Source: Deltaproteobacteria bacterium
GTDB taxonomy: Bacteria > Myxococcota_A > UBA9160 > UBA4427
Direction: 5' to 3'
DNA length: 64,000 bases
NCBI GenBank assembly: GCA_002719955.1
Contig: PBFW01000060.1
Coordinates: 1 to 64,000, forward strand
The notes below the pieces were generated by a model. That model ran no database searches and had not been told where the DNA came from. It saw only the letters and a program-made list of their open reading frames with translations. Below, in pieces: positions 5,651-54,580 of this stretch (position 1 is the stretch's first letter; each line of letters starts with the position of its first letter). The position numbers and the translations under genes are program-made.

Positions 5651-6409
5651 CTAGATGCGCTCCATCAGCCAATAGCGATTGAGGTCGCCCTGCGCGCCAT
5701 CGGCCCGAAAATCGGCGACCGGCCGAAGGCTGAGCGCATCGGGCCAGGTCTCGAATTCGCCGTCCGAGACCTGGTGGCAATAGCGGGGCGGGGCGTCCGG
5801 GTCGTCGCCGAATCGCAGCAGGACGTCGCTGCGATCGAGCTGCTCCCGATCGATTCGCCCGCCGAGGACGTCGCCCACCTTCGACCAATCGACGAGGCGG
5901 CGCTCGAAGCGATCGCGTCCTGCAAATTGCCATGCGGTCAGGGCGAGGACGCCGCCGGGGGCGAGCCTTGCCCGGGCGGCGCGGAGCAGAGCAAGTCGCG
6001 CTTCGCTGCTCGGTACATGATGGAGTACGCCCATCAGGGCGACGAGCGAGAAGGACTCGTCGGGCAACGCTTCACCGGGCTCGTTCGTCGCGAGAAAATC
6101 CTGCAAGAGGAAATCGCTGCGATTGCCCAGGAGCGGTGCGAGGCGTTTTCGTGCGGCGGCGAGCAGGGCCTCGTTCGCGTCCGTGCCCAGGTAGTCGAAG
6201 TCGACCCCGGCGTCGTGTAGAAAACGCCCGAAGCGTCCGTTTCCGCAGCCGATGTCGAGGACTCGGATCGGCTCGGGGGGCAGCGCGTGGACGACGCGCT
6301 CCCAACCCGGCCAGGGCAGATCGACACGACTCGCGTCGAAGGCATCGGCGTGGGCCCGATAGAAGGCCAAAGTGAGGGTGTGGAGCTGTCGGCGTGTGCG
6401 TTCGTCCAT
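5651..6409 (-). CDS. SAM-dependent methyltransferase, Trm9/ALKBH8-like
   Basis: This 252-residue class I methyltransferase begins at ATG 6409; a longer start at 6493 would overlap the divergent elp3. The SAM-binding motif I is VLDIGCGNGRFGRFL (about residues 48-62). Motif IV/V appears as ALMGVLHHVPSSEARL and LAPGGVLALTAW. After an insert, the C-terminus has PPRYCHQVSDGEFE and ends NRYWLMERI. That order and spacing resemble yeast Trm9 (W-A-L-E-Q after motif V, then R-Y-Y-H and E-G-E-L, then W-W). Trm9 methylates cm5U34 of tRNA to mcm5U, and cm5U is the Elp3 product. The neighbour across a 64-bp gap is elp3, which supports the same role. The family assignment is an inference. Confidence 0.7.
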   Translation of the reverse strand: MDERTRRQLHTLTLAFYRAHADAFDASRVDLPWPGWERVVHALPPEPIRVLDIGCGNGRFGRFLHDAGVDFDYLGTDANEALLAAARKRLAPLLGNRSDFLLQDFLATNEPGEALPDESFSLVALMGVLHHVPSSEARLALLRAARARLAPGGVLALTAWQFAGRDRFERRLVDWSKVGDVLGGRIDREQLDRSDVLLRFGDDPDAPPRYCHQVSDGEFETWPDALSLRPVADFRADGAQGDLNRYWLMERI

Positions 6410-6473
6410 GTCCGCGGCGATTCTAGGACGATCCCGTGCCGTCGCCCTACACTCGGCTGCGAGGAGATTCCCT
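6410..6473. promoter_or_regulatory. 64-bp divergent start region of methyltransferase and elp3
   Basis: The gap separates the ATG of the leftward methyltransferase (6409) and the TTG of rightward elp3 (6474). It must hold both translation signals and probably both promoters. GAGGAG at 6461-6466 serves elp3. No strong -35/-10 pair stands out. Confidence 0.35.
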
Positions 6474-8387
6474 TTGGCCGAGAGCGATGCCATCGCGCCC
6501 GATGAGGCGAACGCGCGGGTTGAAGGCGCGAACGATCCCCCGACGAGCGTCGAGGCCGATCCGGGGGGCGTTTCGAGCGAACGCGTGCCGGGTCGATTGC
6601 GCGGGCGGGGACCCGATCGCGATTTCGACCCCGGACCAGTGCGCGCGCATCTGCTGCCCCTCCTGCGGGCGATCGAGAGTGTCTCCGACGAGATTTCCGA
6701 GCCGCTCGCGCCGGAGGTGATGGAGCCCCTGTTGCGATCTCATCCCAGGCCCGGAGGGGGCTTCTTCTCTCGCAGCCACCTGATCGCCGGGTTTCGTGCC
6801 TTTGCTGCCGAAGAGTCCTTTCGATTCGATGAGGCCCGGTTTCGCCGCCGCGTCCAGCGCCGCCCCGTCCGGACACAGAGCGGTGTGACTCCGCTGACCG
6901 TGCTGACCAAGCCCTTTCCCTGTCCCGGCAAGTGCATCTTCTGTCCGAACGATGTCCGGATGCCCAAGAGCTATCTCTCGGATGAACCGGGTGCGCAGCG
7001 CGCGGCCAATAATCGCTTCGACCCCTATCTCCAGACCTGGAATCGCCTGGCCGCCTTCGATGCGACGGGTCATCCCGTCGACAAGGTCGAGATGATCGTC
7101 TTGGGGGGCACCTGGTCCTTCTATCCCGAGGCCTATCAAGTCTGGTTCGTGAAGCGCTGTCTCGAGGCGATGAACGATTTCGGGGCGGGACGCGACGCGC
7201 GCAACGACTTCGATCCGGGGACACCGGACTTCGAGGAGATCGAGGCCGACGTGTCGGGTGGAGAGTTCGATCGCAATCCCTACAACGAGCGGGTGACGGG
7301 ATTTCTCAAGGGGCGGCAGGGCGGGGAGATGTTGCTCGCGCACGAGGGATCGGATTGGTCGGCGCTGGCCGCGGTGCAGAGCGCGAACGAGCGGGCGGGG
7401 GCGAGGTGCGTTGGGCTCGTTCTGGAGACGCGACCGGATCATGTCCACGAAGCGGAAGTCATCCGGCTGCGACGTCTCGGCGCCACGAAGATCCAGCTCG
7501 GGGTCCAGAGCCTCGACGATGAGATCCTGGAAGCGAATCGGCGTGGCCACGGGGTGGCGGAGACGCGTCGGGCATTCGATCTGCTGCGTCGAGCGGGCTT
7601 CAAGCTCCACGTACATTGGATGGCCAATCTGCTGGGGGCCACGCCGGAGACCGATCGCCGAGATTTCGAGCTTCTCTTCGGCGACGAGGCGTTTCGGCCG
7701 GATGAGTTGAAACTCTATCCGTGCAGCCTGGTCGAGACGGCGGAACTGATGGGACCCTGGAGGCGAGGAGAGTGGCGGCCCTATTCGGCCGAGGAACTCC
7801 TCGGGGTCGTTGCGGAGTCACTTGCCCAGGTGCCGCGCTATTGCCGAGTCACCCGGGTGATCCGGGATATTTCTTCCGATGACATCGTCGTCGGGAACAA
7901 GCGAACGAATTTTCGGCAGATCGCGGAGCAGGAGATCGCGCGGCGGGGTGGTGTGCTCGTCGAGATTCGACACAGAGAGATTCGCGCAGAGGCGTTCGAT
8001 CCCGAGGCGCTCGAATTGCGCGAAACCGAGTACACGACCGCGAGTGGGCGCGAGGTCTTTCTCGAATTCGTGACTCCCGACGACCGCATCGTCGGGTTTG
8101 CGCGACTCTCGCTCCCCTCGCAGCCGGCGTTCATCGACGAGCTTGGCGACCACGCGTTGGTCCGCGAACTCCACGTGTACGGCGGCTCGCTTCGGATCGG
8201 CGCCGAGCCCGGCGGGGCGGCCCAACATCGCGGACTCGGCGCACTCCTGCTCGATCGCGCCGCGGGTGTCGCGATCGCCGCGGGCCACGAGACGCTCTCG
8301 GTCATCTCGGCAATCGGGACACGCGACTATTATCGCAGACAGGATTTCGTGGACGGTGCCCTCTACCAGCACCGCCGCCTCCGATAG
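6474..8387 (+). CDS. Elp3 family tRNA uridine-34 carboxymethyl synthase (radical SAM + GNAT)
   Basis: The product has 637 residues. TTG at 6474 is chosen because GAGGAG lies 7 bp upstream. A variable N-terminus of about 120 residues leads to RTQSGVTPLTVLTKPFPCPG. The 4Fe-4S/SAM cysteines follow in CPGKCIFC (about residues 150-157). KIQLGVQSLDDEIL is a typical Elp3 radical-SAM barrel strand. The C-terminal GNAT domain includes LVRELHVYGGSL, QHRGLGALLLDRA and TRDYYRRQDF. Elp3 uses acetyl-CoA and SAM chemistry to make cm5U at the tRNA wobble position. Eukaryotes need the six-subunit Elongator, while bacterial and archaeal Elp3 can act alone. The divergent Trm9-like gene suggests conversion on to mcm5U. 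Confidence 0.92.
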   Translation: MAESDAIAPDEANARVEGANDPPTSVEADPGGVSSERVPGRLRGRGPDRDFDPGPVRAHLLPLLRAIESVSDEISEPLAPEVMEPLLRSHPRPGGGFFSRSHLIAGFRAFAAEESFRFDEARFRRRVQRRPVRTQSGVTPLTVLTKPFPCPGKCIFCPNDVRMPKSYLSDEPGAQRAANNRFDPYLQTWNRLAAFDATGHPVDKVEMIVLGGTWSFYPEAYQVWFVKRCLEAMNDFGAGRDARNDFDPGTPDFEEIEADVSGGEFDRNPYNERVTGFLKGRQGGEMLLAHEGSDWSALAAVQSANERAGARCVGLVLETRPDHVHEAEVIRLRRLGATKIQLGVQSLDDEILEANRRGHGVAETRRAFDLLRRAGFKLHVHWMANLLGATPETDRRDFELLFGDEAFRPDELKLYPCSLVETAELMGPWRRGEWRPYSAEELLGVVAESLAQVPRYCRVTRVIRDISSDDIVVGNKRTNFRQIAEQEIARRGGVLVEIRHREIRAEAFDPEALELRETEYTTASGREVFLEFVTPDDRIVGFARLSLPSQPAFIDELGDHALVRELHVYGGSLRIGAEPGGAAQHRGLGALLLDRAAGVAIAAGHETLSVISAIGTRDYYRRQDFVDGALYQHRRLR

Positions 8388-8425: not shown

Positions 8426-9949
8426 TCAGCCCGCCCGCTTCAGCGGGACGAAGAGGGTCGCGTCCCCCCGTCGCACCAGGATCAGGACGCCATCTGTGGA
8501 GGCGTCCAACCGCTTCGAGAGATCTCGGGCGTCCTTGACCGTCTTGCGGTCGAGCTCGAGAATGATGTCTCCGCGAAGGATCCCCGCTTCCGCCGCGACA
8601 CCGGACGGGTCGACATCGGTCACGATGACCCCGTCAGCTCGGTCGAGGCCGAGTTCGTCAGCGAGCGCGGGGGTCAGGTTCTGGGCCCGCAAGCCGAAAG
8701 CTTCGGCGCCATTCTCCTGGGGAGCCACCGATGCGACCTGCTCGGGGTCGTCGAGCCGGCCGATCTTGATCTTGAAATTCTTCTTCTTGCCATCACGCAC
8801 GACGACGACCTTGGCCTTCGTTTCGACCGGCGTGTTCGCGACGACGAGGGGGAGATCCTTCCACTCGTTGATCGCGACGCCGTTGAATTCGATGATCACA
8901 TCGCCGCGTTCGATCCCGCCGTCCGCGGCCGGCGTATCGGGTAGAACCTGCGAGACCAACGCCCCTTTCGCTTCCTCGAGTTCGAAGGTCTCCGCGATCT
9001 GCTTCGTGACACCCTGGATCTGAACACCTAGCCAGCCGCGCGTCACGCGACCGTCCGCGCGAAGCATGGGGAGGATCTGTTTGGCCTGATTGATCGGAAC
9101 GGAGAAGCCGATCGTATTGGCGTTGCTGCGGATGGCGGTATTGATTCCGACCACGTACCCGCGCAGATCGATCAAGGGGCCGCCGGAGTTGCCGGGGTTG
9201 ATCGCGGCGTCGGTCTGGATGAAATCGTCATAGGACTGCGTCTGGGAGGGGCTGACGTCACGACGATGTTTGGCCGAAACGATGCCGGCGGTCACGGTAT
9301 GTTCGAGGCCAAAGGGGTTGCCGATCGCTACCACCCAATCGCCCGGGCGAATCGAGTCGGAATCGCCGAGGGCAATCGTCGGGAGCGATTTTGCACCGGG
9401 GTCGACTTTGAGCAGTGCGATATCGGTCTTGGGATCTCGGCCGACCACCTCGGCTTCGAGTTCGCTGCCATCCATGAAGAGGACGCGGATCTCGTCCGTG
9501 CCTTCGACCACGTGGTTGTTGGTGACGACGTGGCCGTCGCTCGAGATGATGAAACCGCTGCCCTCGCCCTCGCTCTTGCGTTCGCGGGGCATGCCACGAT
9601 GCCACGGGCTTCCCCCGAAGAATTCTTCGAAACCGGGGGGCATGCCGCCCGGGCGTAGCGAGATCGTGCCCGTAGTCTGAATGCTGACGACGGCGGGGGC
9701 AACCCGTTCCGCGAGATCGGCGAAGCTGGTGGGAATGCCGATCGGCTGGGTCGTTGGGATCGCGCTCTCCGAGCGCCAGAAGGCGTCGCGCGGACCGGCT
9801 GCGCTCGCCTCTTCTGCGTCGCTTCCGAAGAGGTCGAGCGCCTGGGCACTCCGTGGGCCTACGCCGATGTGGCGGTCGGGCACCAGGCTGGTACTGAGAC
9901 CGACGATGGCCAATAGGGTCGTCGCGGTCAGAATGAGTCTTCGTCTCAT
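8426..9949 (-). CDS. HtrA/DegP-type periplasmic serine protease with two PDZ domains
   Basis: The product has 507 residues. ATG at 9949 has AGGAG 7-8 bases upstream and begins a signal peptide (MRRRLILTATTLLAIVG). The trypsin-like domain shows the full triad: His in VTNNHVVEG, Asp in KTDIALLKV, and Ser in NPGNSGGPLIDL. PDZ1 starts near RGWLGVQIQGV and PDZ2 near AFGLRAQNLTPALADELG. Proteins of this family degrade or refold misfolded envelope proteins. A second family member lies directly upstream in the same direction (85-bp gap), so the two may be co-expressed. Family usual length is 450-500. Confidence 0.94.
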   Translation of the reverse strand: MRRRLILTATTLLAIVGLSTSLVPDRHIGVGPRSAQALDLFGSDAEEASAAGPRDAFWRSESAIPTTQPIGIPTSFADLAERVAPAVVSIQTTGTISLRPGGMPPGFEEFFGGSPWHRGMPRERKSEGEGSGFIISSDGHVVTNNHVVEGTDEIRVLFMDGSELEAEVVGRDPKTDIALLKVDPGAKSLPTIALGDSDSIRPGDWVVAIGNPFGLEHTVTAGIVSAKHRRDVSPSQTQSYDDFIQTDAAINPGNSGGPLIDLRGYVVGINTAIRSNANTIGFSVPINQAKQILPMLRADGRVTRGWLGVQIQGVTKQIAETFELEEAKGALVSQVLPDTPAADGGIERGDVIIEFNGVAINEWKDLPLVVANTPVETKAKVVVVRDGKKKNFKIKIGRLDDPEQVASVAPQENGAEAFGLRAQNLTPALADELGLDRADGVIVTDVDPSGVAAEAGILRGDIILELDRKTVKDARDLSKRLDASTDGVLILVRRGDATLFVPLKRAG

Positions 9950-10034
9950 GTTGCATTCTCCTGGGGTGATCTTCACTGCATCGTCGGGCTGCGCGGAAAC
10001 CTCGTTGCATCGAAGGGGAGTCAAGCTCTGCCCA

Positions 10035-11480
10035 TCAGTTTCGCTGCAGGGGGAGAGTGAGATGATATCGGCCGGGCCCTCTCTGGACTACGACCAGGGC
10101 ACGGACGCGGCCGCGAAGGCGCGCGATCGCCCTCCGCAGGTCTTTTCGGGCCGTGAGGGAGACACCGTTGACGCCGAGCAGGTAGTCGTCGGCGCGCAAC
10201 CCGAGGGACTCGGCCGCCGATCCCGGGTCGACATCGATGATCCTCCAGGCGCGATCGGTCCGCGAAAATTCCAGTTCGAGCCCCAATCTGCGGCTCGCGA
10301 TGCCGCGGACCATCGATTGCGGCAGTTCCTCCGCCCGCGCGTTCACCCTTCGGAATTCGCCATCGTGAAAGAGTTCGAGTCTCAGCGCCTGGCCGGCCGT
10401 CATGCTGTCGAGCATCTCGAAGAGCTGTTGGGCGGTCTTCACGCTTCGTCCGTCGAATTCGGTGACGATGTCTCCGCGTTGGATGCCGGCGCGCGAAGCG
10501 GGGCTGCCCGGTTGCAAGCGGTTGACGAGGGCGCCACCGATCCCCTTCGGCAGGTCGAGAACCTGTCGCAGCGCGGGATCGATGTCCTGGAATTCGAGCC
10601 CCAACCACACGGGATGGACCTCGCCGTAGAGAAGCAGTTCGCGAATCACGCGCTTGGCGACATCGATCGGAATCGCGAAGCCGATTCCCTGGGCCCCCCC
10701 GTAGATCGCCGCGTTGATCCCGATCAGCTGGCCTTCGGCGTTCAGGAGCGGGCCTCCTGAGTTGCCGGGATTGATCAGCGCGTCGGTCTGCAGGAGGCCG
10801 TGGAAGGGCGGGCTGCCCTGGGTGTTCACCGATCGGCCGGTTGCCGAGATGACGCCCGTCGTCACGCTATTCGAGAGACCGAAGGGATTGCCGATGGCGA
10901 TCACCGGTTCGCCGACCATCAGGTCGTCGGAACTCCCGGGCTCGGTAAAGGGTAGGGTTTCCTCGCCCTGCATCACGATCTGGAGAACCGCGAGATCATT
11001 GGTCGGGTCCGCGCCCACCAGCTTCGCCTCGAATTCGCGGCCATCGGCGATCGCGATACGGACGCGATCCGCGCGCGCGATCACGTGCTCGTTCGTAAGG
11101 ACATGCCCTTCGCGATCGAAGATGACACCGGATCCGAGGCTCTGAACCGTTCGCGTTCGGGGCTCGAAGAAATTCGAGAAGAAATCCTCGAACGAGGGAT
11201 CTCTCTTCGGGCGGCTGCGAAAGGGGCTGGGGGTTTCGGTGATCCGTTCGGTTGTGATGTTCACGACGCTCGGACCGACGCGTTCGACGACGTCGACGGT
11301 CGCGGTCCGGCGCAGGAAGGGGTCCGCCGCGAAGGCGTTCGAAGCGAGACCGATCGCCGAGATCAGCAGTAGGGACGCGATCCCATCGAAGGCGAGGGTC
11401 GGCCGGCTTCGCCACGGAAGGTGTTGGCGAACGCGCAGGATCGTTGGGGCGAATTTCCGATCTTGGCCTGCTCGAATCAT
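10035..11480 (-). CDS. second HtrA-type serine protease, trypsin domain plus two PDZ
   Basis: The product has about 481 residues from ATG 11480. A TTG two codons earlier is also possible, as GGAG lies 10 bp before it. The N-terminus is basic and then hydrophobic (IASLLLISAIGLASNAFA), fitting a signal peptide or anchor. The triad is His in LTNEHVIARA, Asp in TNDLAVLQI, and Ser in NPGNSGGPLLNA. PDZ1 begins at PVWLGLEFQDI, and PDZ2 is more divergent (IIDVDPGSAAESLGLRADD). The linker after the signal is Pro/Arg-rich. It shares strand and spacing with the downstream Deg protease, but the two differ enough to suggest an old duplication or separate roles. Confidence 0.9.
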   Translation of the reverse strand: MIRAGQDRKFAPTILRVRQHLPWRSRPTLAFDGIASLLLISAIGLASNAFAADPFLRRTATVDVVERVGPSVVNITTERITETPSPFRSRPKRDPSFEDFFSNFFEPRTRTVQSLGSGVIFDREGHVLTNEHVIARADRVRIAIADGREFEAKLVGADPTNDLAVLQIVMQGEETLPFTEPGSSDDLMVGEPVIAIGNPFGLSNSVTTGVISATGRSVNTQGSPPFHGLLQTDALINPGNSGGPLLNAEGQLIGINAAIYGGAQGIGFAIPIDVAKRVIRELLLYGEVHPVWLGLEFQDIDPALRQVLDLPKGIGGALVNRLQPGSPASRAGIQRGDIVTEFDGRSVKTAQQLFEMLDSMTAGQALRLELFHDGEFRRVNARAEELPQSMVRGIASRRLGLELEFSRTDRAWRIIDVDPGSAAESLGLRADDYLLGVNGVSLTARKDLRRAIARLRGRVRALVVVQRGPGRYHLTLPLQRN

Positions 11481-11628
11481 CCTCAACCCGTGCTGGCTCC
11501 GGCGCCGGGCGCGTCGGCTCGGAGCCCACACCGCCCGACTTCTCAGGGAAGGAGATCGGGCGGTCTCGCGTCTATGAAGCCGCGGAGCGGGCATCGGTTC
11601 AGAGCGAATCACGGGCCCCCGCGAGAAA

Positions 11629-12342
11629 TCAGCCAATTGCGCTCCGCCTGCCCTCATCGAGGCCCTCCCTGAGCGTCCGGATCGCATCGCAGGCCTCGCT
11701 CTTCGAGCGGAGCAGACCCGTCACGGCGACGCCTGCGGCACCGGCCCGGATGGCATCGCCTGCGTGATCGGCGTCGACACCACCCTGGGCGAGGACGGGG
11801 AGGCCCGACCCGCAGGCCGCTGCGAGGCGTCCCAATCCGAGCGCCGGGCGCGTCGCGGGCTTCGAGAGTGGATCCCAGATCGGTGCGAGATGGGCATAAT
11901 CGATGGTGCCTGCCGCGGCGCTCTCGACTTCAGCGACCGAGTGGAGCGAGGCGCCGAGCAGCGCATTCGAACCCAGGAAGGCCCGGCTCGTCTCTTGCTC
12001 GAGGGCATCGAAGCCGAGGTGCACACCATCGGCGCCGACGGCCCAGACGAGATCGGATCGCTTGTTCACGATGACGCGTCGGATCGCATTCGCCGGGTCG
12101 ACTCGATCGCAATCGTCGCGTGCAGCGAGCAATGCGCAGGCGATCTGCCAGAGCCTGAAATCCTCGAGGTTCCGATCGCGCAACTGGATCCAATCGACGC
12201 CGGCTTCGAAAAAGTCGAGGGCCCGACCGTGGGGATCCTCGCCGAATGCTGCCCCGTCCAGGACGGCGCACAGGACCGGGCGTCCGCCGAACGCGCTCCG
12301 CGAATTTCCGGTATGCGCTCTGGGTTGTGAAGGACGCGCCAG
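11629..12342 (-). CDS. thiE: thiamine-phosphate synthase, start codon non-canonical
   Basis: The frame carries the ThiE/TenI barrel: VLCAVLDGAAF (strand 1), GVDWIQLRDRNLEDF (strand 2 with the Q-L-R-D signature), WAVGADGVHLG, LLGASLHSVAEVE, APIWDPLSKP and VLAQGGVDADHA. The enzyme couples HMP-PP with thiazole phosphate to give thiamine phosphate. The open frame begins right after the thiG stop (TAG 12348-12346) and contains no ATG, GTG or TTG before the barrel; the first TTG (12183) lies after strand 2 begins. I set the start at CTG 12342, translationally coupled to thiG, as a best guess. CTG at 12273 is another option. Length about 237 from that start. Confidence 0.7.
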   Translation of the reverse strand: MARPSQPRAHTGNSRSAFGGRPVLCAVLDGAAFGEDPHGRALDFFEAGVDWIQLRDRNLEDFRLWQIACALLAARDDCDRVDPANAIRRVIVNKRSDLVWAVGADGVHLGFDALEQETSRAFLGSNALLGASLHSVAEVESAAAGTIDYAHLAPIWDPLSKPATRPALGLGRLAAACGSGLPVLAQGGVDADHAGDAIRAGAAGVAVTGLLRSKSEACDAIRTLREGLDEGRRSAIG

Positions 12343-12345
12343 GAT

Positions 12346-13140
12346 CTAGAAACTCGCCGTGCCGTCGAGGGGACTCGAGGCCGACGCGTAGAGTCGCTTC
12401 GGCATGCGGCCGGCCTCGTAGGCGGCTCGGCCCGCTTCGACACCCTGCCGCATGGCCTTGGCCATCTTGACGGGATCCTTCGCGTGCGCGATCGCCGTAT
12501 TCATCAACAGCGCCGTCGCGCCGAGCTCCATCGCGAACGCGGCATCGCTCGCCGTTCCGACCCCGGCATCCACGATCACGGGGACCTCGACGGTCTCCAT
12601 GATGATGCGCAGATTGGCGGGGTTGCGAATGCCCATGCCGGAGCCGATCGGCGCGGCCAGTGGCATGACCGCGGGACAGCCCATCGCTTCGAGTCGCTGG
12701 CAAGCGACGGGATCGTCCGTGATATAGGGGAGCACGGTGAAGCCATCGTCGATCAGGCGCTGGGTGGCCTCGAGCGTCGCCGGCACGTCGGGAAAGAGCG
12801 TACGCTCGTCACCGATCACCTCGAGCTTCACGAGTTCGGTCTCGAGGAGTTCACGGCCGAGTCGGGCGGTGGTCACCGCGTCGTCGGCGGTATAACAGCC
12901 TGCCGTGTTGGGGAGGATCGTGAAGCGTTCCGGCGAGATCACGTCGAGGAGCCGCGGTCCCTTCGATGCGTCGAAGTTCACCCGGCGCAGCGCAACCGTG
13001 ATCATCTCCGCGCCCGATACTTCCGCGCATTCGAGGTTCTGTTCGAAACTCTCGTATTTGCCTGAGCCGATGATCAGTCGGGAGTTGAATTCGAAACGGC
13101 CAATCTTGAAGGCCGGTGCCTCCGCGCTCGTCTTGCTCAT
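12346..13140 (-). CDS. thiG: thiazole synthase
   Basis: This 264-residue ThiG builds thiazole phosphate from deoxyxylulose phosphate, dehydroglycine and ThiS thiocarboxylate. The start at 13140 has AGAGGAG six bases upstream. Family hallmarks are [14 protein letters not shown], the Schiff-base lysine region [29 protein letters not shown], and [14 protein letters not shown]. It lies 25 bp after thiS and abuts thiE. No thiO or thiH is present here to supply dehydroglycine. Confidence 0.95.
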
Positions 13141-13165
13141 CTTGTTCTCCTCTGGCGGAGGGGTC

Positions 13166-13429
13166 TCAGCCTCCGCCCACGGCTTCCAGAATTTCGATCT
13201 TGTCGTCGACGGCGACCTCGATCTCGCTGTAGCGAGAACGGATGACCACCTCGCCATTCAGAGCGACGGCGACGCGCTGGCCGGCAAGATCGAGGTATTC
13301 GAGCAAGCCGCCGAGGGTGCAGGGGGCCGCGACGCGCAGGGGTTCACCGTTGACGAGCAGGTCGATCTCGGATCGGGAGGATGCGGCCGCGGAAACGTCG
13401 CTGCTCGGGTGTGCGCTGGCCTCTCCCAC
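13166..13429 (-). CDS. thiS: sulfur carrier protein ThiS
   Basis: The last 66 residues form a ubiquitin-like Thi[13 protein letters not shown] at the start, [13 protein letters not shown] in the middle, and the C-terminal [10 protein letters not shown] whose terminal Gly-Gly is adenylated and thiocarboxylated. The chosen start is GTG 13429 because GAGAGGG lies 7 bases before it. This gives 87 residues, about 20 more than usual, as a Ser/Ala-rich leader. ATG at 13498 or 13585 is possible in frame, but neither has a good ribosome binding site and the latter would overlap the divergent alr gene. Confidence 0.85.
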
Positions 13430-13577
13430 GGATCTACCCTCTCGGTCGTATCCCGGCGCCCCGCCGGATTTCTTACTGGTTCGAGTGACGGGCAACATAC
13501 CCGACGCACTCTCGGGCCGCCGCCGATTCGGGAGGCCTTCGCTTTCGGTAGGCTTGCGTGGCTCCCGGGAGGTGAAC

Positions 13578-14870
13578 GTGTTCAAGTCGAGCCATGTCGT
13601 CGAGGACGTCGAGCAGCGGCCCGTCTGGGCCTGGATCGATCAGGCCGCCCTGCGTCACAACGCGCGGCGTGCGATCGAATGCGCCGGCGGTCGGACGGTG
13701 ATCGGGGTCGTGAAGGCCGATGGCTATGGTCACGGGGCGGCCGATGTGGCCCGTGCGCTGCTGGCCGAGGGGGTCGCGCGGCTCGCCGTGGTGAGTGTGG
13801 CAGAGGGCGCCGGATTGAGGCGTGACGGCATCATGGCGCCGATCCTTCTACTCGGCGGGCTCGACGATCTGCCGGCCGCCGAGCGTGCCGTCAAATGGGG
13901 GCTCACGCCGGTTCTCCAGGACGAACGTGGGCTCGCGTTGGCGCGCCGGCTGGGGCGCGCGGAGCCTCCCCTTGCGATCGAGCTCGAGGTCGACACCGGA
14001 ATGCGGCGGATGGGTGTCTCCGCCGACGCTGCGGATGCCCTCCTCGAAGGGGTGAGCCGCACGCCCGAACTTTCGCTCTCCGGCGTGTTCACCCACCTCG
14101 CCCGGGCCGACGAGCCGGATCCCGCGCCGAGCCGCGAACAATATGAGGCCCTGGCCGCGATCCTGCTCGCACGGGAGGAGTCCGGGGGGGGCGCGCCGGA
14201 TTGCCACGTTCTGAATTCGGCCGGGCTGCTGCGGCTGGCCGAATTCGAGCCCGCAGCGGACGGATTTGCGACCCAGGCCGTTCGTCCCGGGCTCATGCTC
14301 TATGGCGTCTCCCCTTTCATGGGGGAGGGTTCGCGCATGGGGGGAAGCTCGCGCGGGAGCGGGGACGCCGATTCGGCCCTCGCCGAGGGGGGCGACGGAG
14401 ATCCCTGGTCGAACCGGACCGCCGAGGCCCTCGATCTGGAGCCAGCGATGACGCTGGCGGCGAAAGTGATCGCGGTTCGTCGAATCCAGGCCGGCGATTG
14501 CGTCGGCTACGGAGGACAGTGGAGGGCGGCGGAGGCTACGACGATCGCCACATTGCCGCTCGGATACGCGGATGGGATTCCGCGATCGGTATTGGGTCGG
14601 GGGGCGGTACACCTCGCGGGGGCGATGCGCCCGATCGTTGGGCGCGTCTCGATGGACAGCGTCTGCCTAGATGTCGGCCAGACGCCGGTCGAGGTCGGGG
14701 AACTCGCGACGGTCTTCGGTCGGACGCCCGAGGGTGAGCGCATCCCGGTCGAGAATCTGGCGGCGGCGGCCGGAACCGTCGGGTACGAAATCCTGGTCGG
14801 CGTGGGTGCCCGGGTGCCCCGGCGATGGGGAATCGGATGGCCACCCGGCGATGGCGGACGCGCCGATTGA
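13578..14870 (+). CDS. alr: alanine racemase
   Basis: This fold-type III PLP enzyme makes D-alanine for peptidoglycan. The start is GTG 13578, with GGAGG five bases upstream. The PLP lysine is in VVKADGYGHG (about residue 48), and the catalytic tyrosine lies in DCVGYGGQWRA. GYADGIPRSVLG and VGRVSMDSVCLDV complete the C-terminal domain. At 430 residues it is longer than the usual 360-390, because a Gly/Ser/Asp-rich insert of about 40 residues follows YGVSPF (about 14325-14440). The gene is divergent from thiS. Confidence 0.93.
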   Translation: MFKSSHVVEDVEQRPVWAWIDQAALRHNARRAIECAGGRTVIGVVKADGYGHGAADVARALLAEGVARLAVVSVAEGAGLRRDGIMAPILLLGGLDDLPAAERAVKWGLTPVLQDERGLALARRLGRAEPPLAIELEVDTGMRRMGVSADAADALLEGVSRTPELSLSGVFTHLARADEPDPAPSREQYEALAAILLAREESGGGAPDCHVLNSAGLLRLAEFEPAADGFATQAVRPGLMLYGVSPFMGEGSRMGGSSRGSGDADSALAEGGDGDPWSNRTAEALDLEPAMTLAAKVIAVRRIQAGDCVGYGGQWRAAEATTIATLPLGYADGIPRSVLGRGAVHLAGAMRPIVGRVSMDSVCLDVGQTPVEVGELATVFGRTPEGERIPVENLAAAAGTVGYEILVGVGARVPRRWGIGWPPGDGGRAD

Positions 14871-51678: not shown

Positions 51679-52887
51679 GTGGATTTTTCAGAATCCGCAC
51701 CGCCGTCGCGTTCGACCGGTGGGCGCGCACCGGAGCAAGCGCTCGATTGGCTGAGGCTCCAGCGCGCGCTGGCCTTTCATCCGGAGGCGGTCGGCCGGGC
51801 TCTGCGCGGTGGGGCCACGCCGGATCGGATTCTGGCCCTCTTTAAGTCTCGCCTCGAGGTCGGGTGCCGAACGTCTCCGCGCGCTTCGGCCGTAGAGGAC
51901 GAGCACGGGGAGAACGCGGGCGCGCGTGGGGTCGAGCGCGATTGGAGGCGCCTCGAAGCCCTCGGTGCATGCGTGCTGACGATGAGGGATGCGAGTTATC
52001 CCGAACGGCTCGCGGCTCTTCCCGATGCGCCCCCCGTCCTCCTGGTTCGCGGAGGTGTGCACGCGCTGGCGGCACCCACCGTGGCGATCGTCGGGGCTCG
52101 TGCCGCGACCCGAAGCGCACGCGGCCAGGCGCGACGTCTCGGGCGAGAGCTCGCTGCTCGTGGAGTGACCATCGTCTCCGGCCTGGCGCGTGGAATCGAC
52201 GCCGAGGCGCATCGCGGCGCGCTCGAAGCCGGAGGGCGGACGGTGGCCGTGCTCGCCGGTGGCCTCGATCGGACCTACCCGCCCGAACACCGGGACCTCG
52301 CCGCGGAAATCGCTGTCGACGGTGCCGTCGTGAGCGAAGTGCCTCTCGGGACGGCACCACGGCGCGAACTCTTTCCGCTACGCAACAGAATCATCAGTGG
52401 CCTGAGCCTCGGCATCATTGTCGTCGAGGCGCGTCGTCGAAGCGGATCGCTGATCACGGTTCGGCACGCCCTGAATCAGGGCAGGGAGGTCTGGGTCGTT
52501 CCGGGGTCGAGCGAGGGACCCTTCGCGGAGGGCAGCAATCTTCTTCTGAGGGAGGGCGCTCGGGCGATTCGAAACGCTGCTGACATCGTTGAGGATCTGG
52601 CGGGCTCGCTTCCGCAACGGTGTCGACCTAGCGGGTCCGCTAGCCGATGGGACGACGCGGACGAGCGCGGCGAAGCCACCCGACTCGGGCCGGCCTCGGA
52701 TCCACAGGGCGATTCGGTCGAGGAGGGGATCCTCGCCCTCCTGGGCGAGGGGCCCGCCACGCGAGAGGACCTGATCTCGCGCGTCGAACTCGATCCCGGC
52801 CGCTTGGCGCAAGCGCTCCTCAACCTCGAGTTGGGGGGCCGGATCGTCGAGGAGCACGACGGCCGATTTCATGCCTGCTGGAGATGA
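51679..52887 (+). CDS. dprA: DNA-processing protein DprA
   Basis: The 402 residues carry the DprA Rossmann fold: TVAIVGARAATRSARGQARRL, IVSGLARGIDAEAHRGAL, VAVLAGGLDRTYPPEHRDL and FPLRNRIISGLSLGIIVVEA. A C-terminal winged-helix (LALLGEGPATREDLISRVEL) follows. It loads RecA on incoming single-stranded DNA in natural transformation, and is widely conserved even without competence. The start GTG 51679 has no clear ribosome binding site. Confidence 0.94.
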   Translation: MDFSESAPPSRSTGGRAPEQALDWLRLQRALAFHPEAVGRALRGGATPDRILALFKSRLEVGCRTSPRASAVEDEHGENAGARGVERDWRRLEALGACVLTMRDASYPERLAALPDAPPVLLVRGGVHALAAPTVAIVGARAATRSARGQARRLGRELAARGVTIVSGLARGIDAEAHRGALEAGGRTVAVLAGGLDRTYPPEHRDLAAEIAVDGAVVSEVPLGTAPRRELFPLRNRIISGLSLGIIVVEARRRSGSLITVRHALNQGREVWVVPGSSEGPFAEGSNLLLREGARAIRNAADIVEDLAGSLPQRCRPSGSASRWDDADERGEATRLGPASDPQGDSVEEGILALLGEGPATREDLISRVELDPGRLAQALLNLELGGRIVEEHDGRFHACWR

Positions 52888-53110
52888 GGCCGCGGCTGGA
52901 GAGGGCCTGGGCTATCCTCGCCGGATTCGCGCGCTCGTTCTGCGGAGTAGAGTGCCAAATCCCCCAGATGATCGATGGACCGGATTCGTGAAGGGGTCAC
53001 CGGATCGCGGTCGATTTCCTTTGGAGGTCGGGCGAGGCCGCCGGCCGCTCCGTTCGGAGGATCGGCGTCGACGCCCGATCCGGGCGGAACGCGAGAACAG
53101 GGAGTTGCGG

Positions 53111-54580
53111 GTGGAGCCGTCTTTGGGTCGAGCAGAATTGGTGACTGTCGTCGGTGCGGGTCTGGCCGGATCGGAAGCGGCCTGGCAGCTCGCCGAGCGC
53201 GGAATCCCTGTGCTGCTTTTCGACATGAAACCGGAGCGGCTCTCTCCCGCCCACGCGTCGGAGGATCTCGCCGAGCTCGTCTGCAGCAACTCGCTGCGCG
53301 CGAATACGCTGGGCAATGCCGTTGGTCTGCTCAAGGAAGAGATGCGTCGGCTCGGATCCCTGGTGATTCGTTGGGCGGACGAAACCGCGGTCCCGGCCGG
53401 AAAAGCACTCGCCGTCGATCGTGTCCATTTTTCGCGCAGAATCACCCAAGCCCTCGAAGCGCATCCGAATATCGAGATCCGTCGGGAGCGGATCGCGAGC
53501 ATTCCCGAGGCGCGCCCGGTGATCCTGGCGACGGGGCCGCTCACAGATCCCGAACTTGCGGCGGATCTCGGCCGTGTGCTCGGCGAGGAGCACCTCTATT
53601 TCTACGACGCGATCAGCCCGACGCTCTACGCCGATTCGATCGATGAGGAAATCGTATTTCGGGCCTCGCGCTATGACACCGGTGTCGAAGGCGAAGGCGA
53701 CTATCTGAACGTGCCGCTCTCGCGGGCTGAGTACGAGGGCTTCGTCGAAGCCCTGTTGGAGGCGGAGACGGTACCGCTTCATGAATTCGAGAAGGCGCTC
53801 TATTTCGAGGGCTGCCTGCCGATCGAGGAGATGGCGCGCCGCGGTCGCGAGACGTTGGCTTTCGGTCCGCTGAAGCCGGTCGGTCTGGTGGATCCGAGAT
53901 CCGGGCGACGTCCTCACGCCGTCGTTCAACTTCGGCAGGAAGATCACGAGGGCACACTCTGGAATCTTGTCGGGTGTCAGACGAAGCTGCGGGTCGGGGA
54001 GCAGAAACGCATCTTTCGGATGTTGCCGGGCCTGCAGTCCGCTGTTTTTGCCCGCTTCGGTTCGGTCCATCGCAACACCTATGTGAATGCGCCGACCCAA
54101 CTCGACGAACGCCTGCAGTTGCGAACCCGTCCGGGGGTCCACCTCGCAGGGCAGATGGCGGGCGTCGAAGGATATGTCGAGTCCGCGGCGCTCGGATATC
54201 TCGCCGGCGTCGGTGTCGCGCGCGAATCGCTCGGATTGTCCCACGAAGTCCCCCCGCCGGAGACGGCCCATGGTGCTTTGCTTCGTCATCTCCAGGCGGC
54301 GAACGCCAGATATTTTCAACCCATGAACGTCAACTACGGGCTCTTCCCGCCCCTCGATCCCCATGAGGCACGATCTTCTGCGAAGCCGGCTCATCCGGGC
54401 GGGCGACGCAAGAAGCTGCCGAAACGCGAGAAGAACGAGAGGCTTGCCGCTCGCGCGCTCGAGTCGCTGGCTTCCTATCGCGCGCGGGTTTGCGACCCGG
54501 ATTCTGGTCGCGGCTTCGATGCGGCCTGTGCCGCGGTCTCCGGTCCCGCTGCGTTCCCCTCGGAAGGGGGGAGCATATGA
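53111..54580 (+). CDS. trmFO: methylenetetrahydrofolate--tRNA-(uracil-54-C5)-methyltransferase TrmFO
   Basis: The 489 residues (GTG 53111, GGGAG 7 bp upstream) have the FAD site VVGAGLAGSEAAWQLAERG, CSNSLRANTLGNAVGLLKEE, YFEGCLPIEEMARRG, LRQEDHEGTLWNLVGCQT and GQMAGVEGYVESAALG. It forms T54 in tRNA using folate and FAD. The family is usually about 440 residues; here a Lys/Arg-rich C-terminal stretch adds about 40. The frame is open upstream into the dprA end, but without family-like sequence. It overlaps xerC by 4 bp (ATGA). Confidence 0.95.
   Translation: MEPSLGRAELVTVVGAGLAGSEAAWQLAERGIPVLLFDMKPERLSPAHASEDLAELVCSNSLRANTLGNAVGLLKEEMRRLGSLVIRWADETAVPAGKALAVDRVHFSRRITQALEAHPNIEIRRERIASIPEARPVILATGPLTDPELAADLGRVLGEEHLYFYDAISPTLYADSIDEEIVFRASRYDTGVEGEGDYLNVPLSRAEYEGFVEALLEAETVPLHEFEKALYFEGCLPIEEMARRGRETLAFGPLKPVGLVDPRSGRRPHAVVQLRQEDHEGTLWNLVGCQTKLRVGEQKRIFRMLPGLQSAVFARFGSVHRNTYVNAPTQLDERLQLRTRPGVHLAGQMAGVEGYVESAALGYLAGVGVARESLGLSHEVPPPETAHGALLRHLQAANARYFQPMNVNYGLFPPLDPHEARSSAKPAHPGGRRKKLPKREKNERLAARALESLASYRARVCDPDSGRGFDAACAAVSGPAAFPSEGGSI

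Follow-up and report, generated by a model that had tools for sequence, protein, structure and literature searches.

According to PMC5400242, tRNAs for Gln, Lys and Glu universally carry a modification at C5 of the wobble uridine U34, and leaving this base unmodified is reported to be nonviable in Salmonella. The usual division assigns this task to MnmE/MnmG in bacteria and to Elongator with Trm9 in eukaryotes. Trm9 acts after the Elp3 step, converting its product to 5-methoxycarbonylmethyluridine (mcm5U; PMC5372719), and the mcm5U-type modifications made by Trm9 have been called exclusive to eukaryotes (PMC6382703). Haloferax also contains mcm5U (PMC7663514, PMC6367351), an archaeal Trm9 was predicted in 2008 and its gene is clustered with elp3 in S. 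solfataricus (PMC2584109), and archaeal Trm9 has been reported only from a subset of archaea (PMC5372719, PMC2584109). As described in 2020, bacterial Elp3 was known from one clade, Dehalococcoides, where direct evidence of 5-carboxymethyluridine (cm5U) derivatives was lacking (PMC7663514); a 2026 paper on Elp3 places the enzyme in numerous bacteria (PMC13315578). Here, we describe a 64,000-nucleotide stretch of a deltaproteobacterial genome (hereafter the window; source genome 5.85 Mb, 77 contigs, 94% complete, 8.6% contamination) in which an elp3 gene and the gene of a Trm9-like methyltransferase are divergent neighbors.

An earlier sequence-only reading of the window had placed the two open reading frames (ORFs) exactly where we find them (Table 1), and had proposed that they might form a two-gene mcm5U system in a bacterium. 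In the pathway that we propose, Elp3, alone as in archaea, would use S-adenosylmethionine (SAM) radical chemistry and acetyl-CoA to carboxymethylate U34 at C5, and the methyltransferase would esterify the carboxylate of the resulting cm5U with a methyl group taken from SAM, giving mcm5U34, or the 2-thiolated mcm5s2U34 where U34 is thiolated. That the pair makes cm5U34 and then mcm5U34, and thereby stands in for MnmE/MnmG, is on the sequence evidence quite probable. We infer both enzyme activities, the order of the steps, the target tRNAs and thiolation, and a Trm112-type partner may or may not be needed. The identities of the genes, the conservation of active-site residues, the co-occurrence with Elp3 and the absence of MnmG (and, in 60 genomes, of MnmE) are observed. 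The bacterial Elp3 presumably acts alone. A lone bacterial Elp3 making cm5U34 is reasonable, since recombinant archaeal Elp3 alone forms cm5U34 in vitro (PMC13315578).

Compared with eukaryotic Elongator (Elp3) and Trm9-Trm112 or ALKBH8, the locus has both catalytic families in common and keeps four of the five mutation-tested Trm9 residues, but its genes are divergent neighbors, its hosts are devoid of MnmG, and a cysteine (C211) stands where Trm9 has Y243. The archaeal systems (Haloferax, Sulfolobus) resemble it in combining a stand-alone Elp3 with a predicted Trm9-type methyltransferase. Like bacterial MnmE/MnmG, which makes 5-carboxymethylaminomethyluridine (cmnm5U34), the pair would act on C5 of U34 (PMC7663514), but with different chemistry and different proteins. 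As to the earlier suggestion that such a bacterial system is perhaps undescribed, neither a bacterial Trm9 nor bacterial mcm5U is the subject of any paper among the open-license matches listed (titles and starts of abstracts), a scope that leaves aside most subscription papers and all preprints.

The Elp3 of the window scores 454 bits against the NCBIfam model TIGR01211 (cut-off 350), which places it in this curated family, and aligns with the structure of Dehalococcoides mccartyi Elp3 (DmcElp3; 5l7j) at E 3.8e-93. The radical-SAM cysteines and the GNAT domain pointed out in the sequence-only reading are both confirmed. C150, C154 and C157 do not vary in any of the aligned rows (Table 1), and the C-terminal acetyltransferase domain is present, with the TIGR01211 alignment reaching residue 635 of 637 and the 5l7j alignment residue 625, though the generic Pfam GNAT model (Acetyltransf_1) stays under its cut-off (13.6 versus 20.7 bits). 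The window protein and DmcElp3 belong to the same enzyme family, the former being longer at the N-terminus and carrying an additional stretch of about 58 residues (240-297, window 7191-7364) without counterpart in 5l7j. In the passages of PMC7663514 and PMC6367351 consulted, the Dehalococcoides enzyme is not given a methyltransferase as partner.

The methyltransferase is matched over cut-off by Pfam Methyltransf_12 and Methyltransf_25, and none of the NCBIfam models reaches its cut-off. Profiles from two family alignments, A1 (31 rows) and A3 (54 rows), were searched against 177,635 distinct PDB sequences, and both retrieved the yeast Trm9 of Yarrowia (5cm2_Z) first, at E 1.2e-12 for A1 (runner-up 1.2e-9) and 1.6e-15 for A3 (runner-up 3.9e-13, a sum of two domains); the A3 alignment extends into the RYYH lid. 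When A3 was compared by hhalign with a three-row Trm9/ALKBH8 profile (A4, two rows of which were entered as background sequences), the two families paired over their whole length (214 columns, 99.8% probability), including R28, the HH pair, RY-x-H, E218 and N244. Reciprocally, the sole match of A4 at E 0.001 or better in the window's genome is the methyltransferase gene (9.1e-8), and the family gene is the top match in 32 of the 41 methyltransferase-bearing genomes among 60 of the order. Over partly redundant loci, A4 retrieved 140 family ORFs at E 1 or better, the window gene scoring 32 bits, against four other ORFs with at most 18.4 bits.

In Saccharomyces cerevisiae Trm9 (ScTrm9), the substitutions R29A, H115A, R241A, Y243A and N271A strongly affect tRNA affinity and activity, and R29, H115, R241 and N271 are said to orient cm5U34 (PMC5372719). 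Four of these five positions are kept in the window protein, as R28, H130, R209 and N244, and these four align with the Trm9 residues credited with positioning cm5U34. The order of motifs noticed in the sequence-only reading, R-Y-x-H followed by G-E, is also recovered: RYCHQVSDGE (residues 209-218) has a spacing identical to that of RYYHLYREGE in Yarrowia Trm9, and in the 5cm2 sequence RYYH lies 30 residues from the C-terminal N, the same distance as from R241 to N271. The AlphaFold (AF2) model of the methyltransferase is confident (mean predicted local distance difference test score 95.8), and Trm9 has the highest target-normalized template modeling score (0.75) of the 50 structures listed by Foldseek, a measure that favors a short target.

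Not all of these comparisons agree, and several results count against the Trm9 assignment. In a single-sequence PDB search, Trm9 (19.4 bits) fell below CmoB (26.2 bits) and many other methyltransferases, and LahSB (6uak) and 3bkw also outscored it; because the profiles favored Trm9 and the single sequence did not, the assignment was made with the family profiles. The choice between Trm9 and UbiE-type families raised by the sequence-only reading therefore has a divided answer: the family profile lies nearer to Trm9 than to UbiE, UbiG or CmoB, and the single sequence does not. In the Foldseek list, which has many class I methyltransferases, the E-value of 5cm2_Z (1.6e-11) puts it in 14th place, so the fold alone is not decisive. 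With A4, a different methyltransferase scores higher in eight of the 41 genomes (G006, G007, G018, G025, G028, G035, G043, G052), and nothing reaches E 0.001 in one (G008). The tree sets the bacterial family and Trm9 apart from 12 other methyltransferases with support of 82/93, below the tool's threshold and with long branches, and it fits Trm9 either as sister of the bacterial family or as branching within it. Because both placements stand, we restrict the label: as far as these comparisons go, the family is Trm9-related, not a demonstrated ortholog.

The fifth mutation-tested residue, Y243, is replaced by C211 in the window protein, and none of the 54 A3 rows has a tyrosine at this position (41 have C, 10 have V, two have L and one has S). 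This departure from Trm9 would suit a methyltransferase that belongs to the Elp3 pathway but makes something other than mcm5U34, either another cm5U-derived wobble form or a modification at another position of the same tRNAs; tight coupling to Elp3, described below, likewise suits any enzyme acting on Elp3-modified tRNA. The retention of the four cm5U34-orienting residues, together with Trm9 as the top PDB match of the family profiles, argues against such a product, which we consider unlikely.

Several other methyltransferase families were examined as candidates and rejected: UbiG reaches 25.1 bits (cut-off 102.95), the UbiE-type models listed 16.8 bits at most, under their curated cut-offs, and CpaM remains far under its curated cut-off for the window protein. 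The UbiE/UbiG, CmoB and CpaM families also match the 31 orthologs, the best being CpaM at E 3.7e-13, in a comparison by E-value without cut-offs. Weak CmoB matches (23.7 bits with TIGR00452, 26.2 bits with 4p7c) might evoke a cmo5U-type wobble route, in which the methyltransferase acts on 5-hydroxyuridine derivatives and not on cm5U. These scores are far under the CmoB cut-offs (275 and 209 bits), CmoB is absent from the best 60 of 90 PDB matches of profile A3, and cmo5U synthesis is not known to require Elp3; this route is hardly credible.

A haloarchaeal protein connects the Trm9 and bacterial families, as it matches the profiles of both. The Natronorubrum bangense plasmid methyltransferase WP_006068033.1 (L159:2944-3654), whose annotation says no more than class I, reaches 100 bits against the Trm9 profile and 95 bits against A3, and is a likely archaeal Trm9 given these high scores with both. 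In the tree, a long branch supported at 100/99 unites it with eukaryotic Trm9 and separates the two from the bacterial rows.

We then turn to the distribution of the two genes in relatives, in 60 genomes of the order (among them the one that contains the window) and in 190 Myxococcota genomes at least 85% complete (methyltransferase at E 1e-25 or better, Elp3 at E 1e-40 or better), two samples that overlap. In the order, both genes are present in 40 genomes, the methyltransferase alone in one, Elp3 alone in none and neither in 19 (Fisher p = 1e-14). The lone methyltransferase is a partial gene at a contig end of a 74% complete genome (G043). The genes are divergent neighbors on one contig in 38 of the 40, the methyltransferase being in some cases broken by contig ends or frame (e.g., G007, G025), and lie on two contigs in G024. 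Among the 190 Myxococcota, 30 genomes have both genes, one the methyltransferase alone, none Elp3 alone and 159 neither (Fisher p = 4e-34); in the 31st methyltransferase-bearing genome (G014), a truncated Elp3 lies at the end of a contig. The pair is hence conserved in relatives, a point that the sequence-only reading had asked to have checked, with Elp3 in 40 of the 41 methyltransferase-bearing genomes of the order, which exceeds chance, and it recurs in other phyla. The tree distances of the two genes agree (r 0.82, 47 loci), a value uncorrected for species descent and not used as support. In G021 (locus L156, G021:C529), about 5.8 kb of other ORFs separate the two genes, the sole same-contig separation among the 60 relatives.

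Beyond Myxococcota, a scan of GTDB contigs with A1 returned at least 355 relatives, the best 80 loci of which were analyzed; nearly all are metagenome-assembled genomes, and taxon names are given as titled. These 80 loci fall in Myxococcota, Chloroflexota (mostly Anaerolineae), Patescibacteria/WWE3/Dojkabacteria and Acidobacteriota, with single records titled Verrucomicrobia and Phycisphaera. Elp3 exceeds 150 bits in the examined flank of 48 loci; in 46 of these it is encoded on the other strand, upstream of the methyltransferase gene, though not in every case directly beside it. All loci with both genes over length and score thresholds are divergent (77/77, a redundant set that shrinks to 47 once identical methyltransferases are removed). 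Elp3 was also searched in 50 whole methyltransferase-bearing genomes, drawn from all 32 loci that lack Elp3 in the flank and from 18 of the 48 loci that have it there. It passes the cut-off in 44 of them (26/32 flank-lacking, 18/18 flank-bearing), and fragments in two further genomes (G071, G072) bring the flank-lacking genomes with Elp3 to 28 of 32. The pair may be adjacent in eight of these 32 loci, as less than 2.5 kb of upstream sequence is available. For the other 24, with at least 2.5 kb upstream, 20 genomes encode Elp3 (19 over cut-off, one fragmentary) away from the methyltransferase, and the link between the genes therefore outlasts the loss of adjacency. In a plasmid collection, the one archaeal Elp3 record has no annotated methyltransferase within 6 kb, by annotation only, hypothetical proteins not being examined.

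These distributions bear on the idea that the methyltransferase is unrelated in function to Elp3, for instance a small-molecule or quinone methyltransferase that merely has a divergent promoter region in common with it. No curated equivalog covers the window protein, generic methyltransferase models match it, and the rank of LahSB, 3bkw and CmoB above Trm9 in the single-sequence search would fit this idea. It is nevertheless very improbable in view of the 20 of 24 genomes in which Elp3 lies elsewhere, the joint presence and absence of both genes over the 190 Myxococcota, and the Trm9-like spacing of the C-terminal RYxH...E.

For the MnmE/MnmG route, which the sequence-only reading names as that of most bacteria, no tested genome with the pair has MnmG, and none of the genomes searched for MnmE has that protein. 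Neither passes its cut-off in any of the 60 relatives of the order, to which the MnmE search was confined; of 14 control genomes, 9 score over the cut-off. MnmG was also searched in the 190 Myxococcota, where it is found at E 1e-60 or better in 99 genomes (98 over cut-off), distributed as 0 of 31 methyltransferase-bearing genomes versus 99 of 159 others (Fisher p = 5e-12), and in the 50 methyltransferase-bearing genomes across phyla, where it is found in none. Weaker MnmG matches occur in 55 of the 60 relatives and were suspected to represent hidden MnmG; all are under the cut-off. The one inside the window is explained by a TrmFO gene (52871-54580, +; TIGR00137 572 bits, cut-off 428.65). The MnmE matches, among those listed, lie at positions 182-411 of 446, which we take to be the GTPase part. 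The distribution of MnmG looks like functional replacement by the pair, with the caveat that MnmG is also missing from genomes that lack Elp3. One such genome, G012, from the window's own family and 98% complete, has neither MnmG nor the pair.

Other features of the distribution weaken the case for the pathway. Sixty of the 190 Myxococcota have neither MnmG nor the pair. The p values ignore shared ancestry, and when two genes are neighbors, their joint absence from a fragmented genome does not count as independent evidence. No Elp3 was found in four of the 50 methyltransferase-bearing genomes (G084, G087, G090, G091); their loci (L133, L139, L146, L151) may reflect incomplete genomes or a different use of the methyltransferase. 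Finally, Trm112-like matches (PF03966, mostly weak) occur in 20 of the 41 genomes with the methyltransferase and in 13 of the 19 without. The Trm112-like genes show no link to the pair, and their presence says nothing on dependence.

The two-gene mcm5U proposal is thus supported at the level of sequence, with the methyltransferase as a Trm9 relative and a range far wider than one bacterium. We lean, on balance, toward a broader view, in which at least four bacterial phyla would have swapped MnmE/MnmG for a minimal Elp3 and Trm9-like system and would carry mcm5U or mcm5s2U, which has until now been ascribed to eukaryotes and archaea, the methyltransferase being an old branch of the Trm9 lineage that may work without Trm112. 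If this is true, the Trm112 dependence and the Elongator scaffold of eukaryotes would be later additions, and bacteria would have a new way of reading split codon boxes. Such a two-protein version would break the usual division between the domains, provide a minimal system in which to study mcm5U synthesis, explain how some bacteria manage without MnmE/MnmG, and bear on the origin of the eukaryotic pathway.

Table 1 Coordinates of the elp3/methyltransferase locus in the window and evidence for each feature.
Feature	Position	Strand	Evidence
Trm9-like class I SAM methyltransferase gene, 252 aa, ATG at 6409	5651..6409	-	ORF; Pfam; family profiles; AF2 model
Methyltransferase R28, counterpart of ScTrm9 R29, in F-D-A-S-R...P-W-P motif	6326..6328	-	R in 31/31 (A1), 53/54 (A3)
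Methyltransferase H130-H131, counterpart of ScTrm9 H115-H116	6017..6022	-	H130 31/31 (A1), 47/54 (A3; other 7 Q); H131 30/31, 54/54
Methyltransferase R209-Y210-C211-H212, counterpart of ScTrm9 R241-Y-Y243-H lid motif	5774..5785	-	R209 31/31 (A1), 54/54 (A3)
Methyltransferase E218, nine residues past R209, as in Trm9 RYYHLYREGE	5756..5758	-	E in 29/31 (A1), 52/54 (A3)
Methyltransferase N244, counterpart of ScTrm9 N271	5678..5680	-	N in 31/31 (A1), 53/54 (A3); hhalign pairs N244 with Trm9 C-terminal N
Divergent intergenic gap, 64 bp, length contingent on Elp3 start codon	6410..6473	.	ORF boundaries
elp3, predicted radical SAM/GNAT tRNA U34 carboxymethylation enzyme, 637 aa, TTG start (uncertain)	6474..8387	+	TIGR01211; 5l7j
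Elp3 C-x3-C-x2-C iron-sulfur motif, C150/C154/C157	6921..6944	+	Invariant in 25/25 rows (A2); present in DmcElp3

The 64-bp spacing given in the sequence-only reading applies when Elp3 starts at the TTG; an in-frame ATG is also present at 6408 and conservation runs from about residue 50 onward, so the size of the gap is as uncertain as the start codon. No sigma-70-like promoter was found in 6300-6600. Visual inspection of the translations suggests two tandem HtrA/DegP-like serine protease genes (8426-11687, -) downstream of elp3 and a thiS-thiG-thiE run of thiamine genes at 11629-13585 (-).

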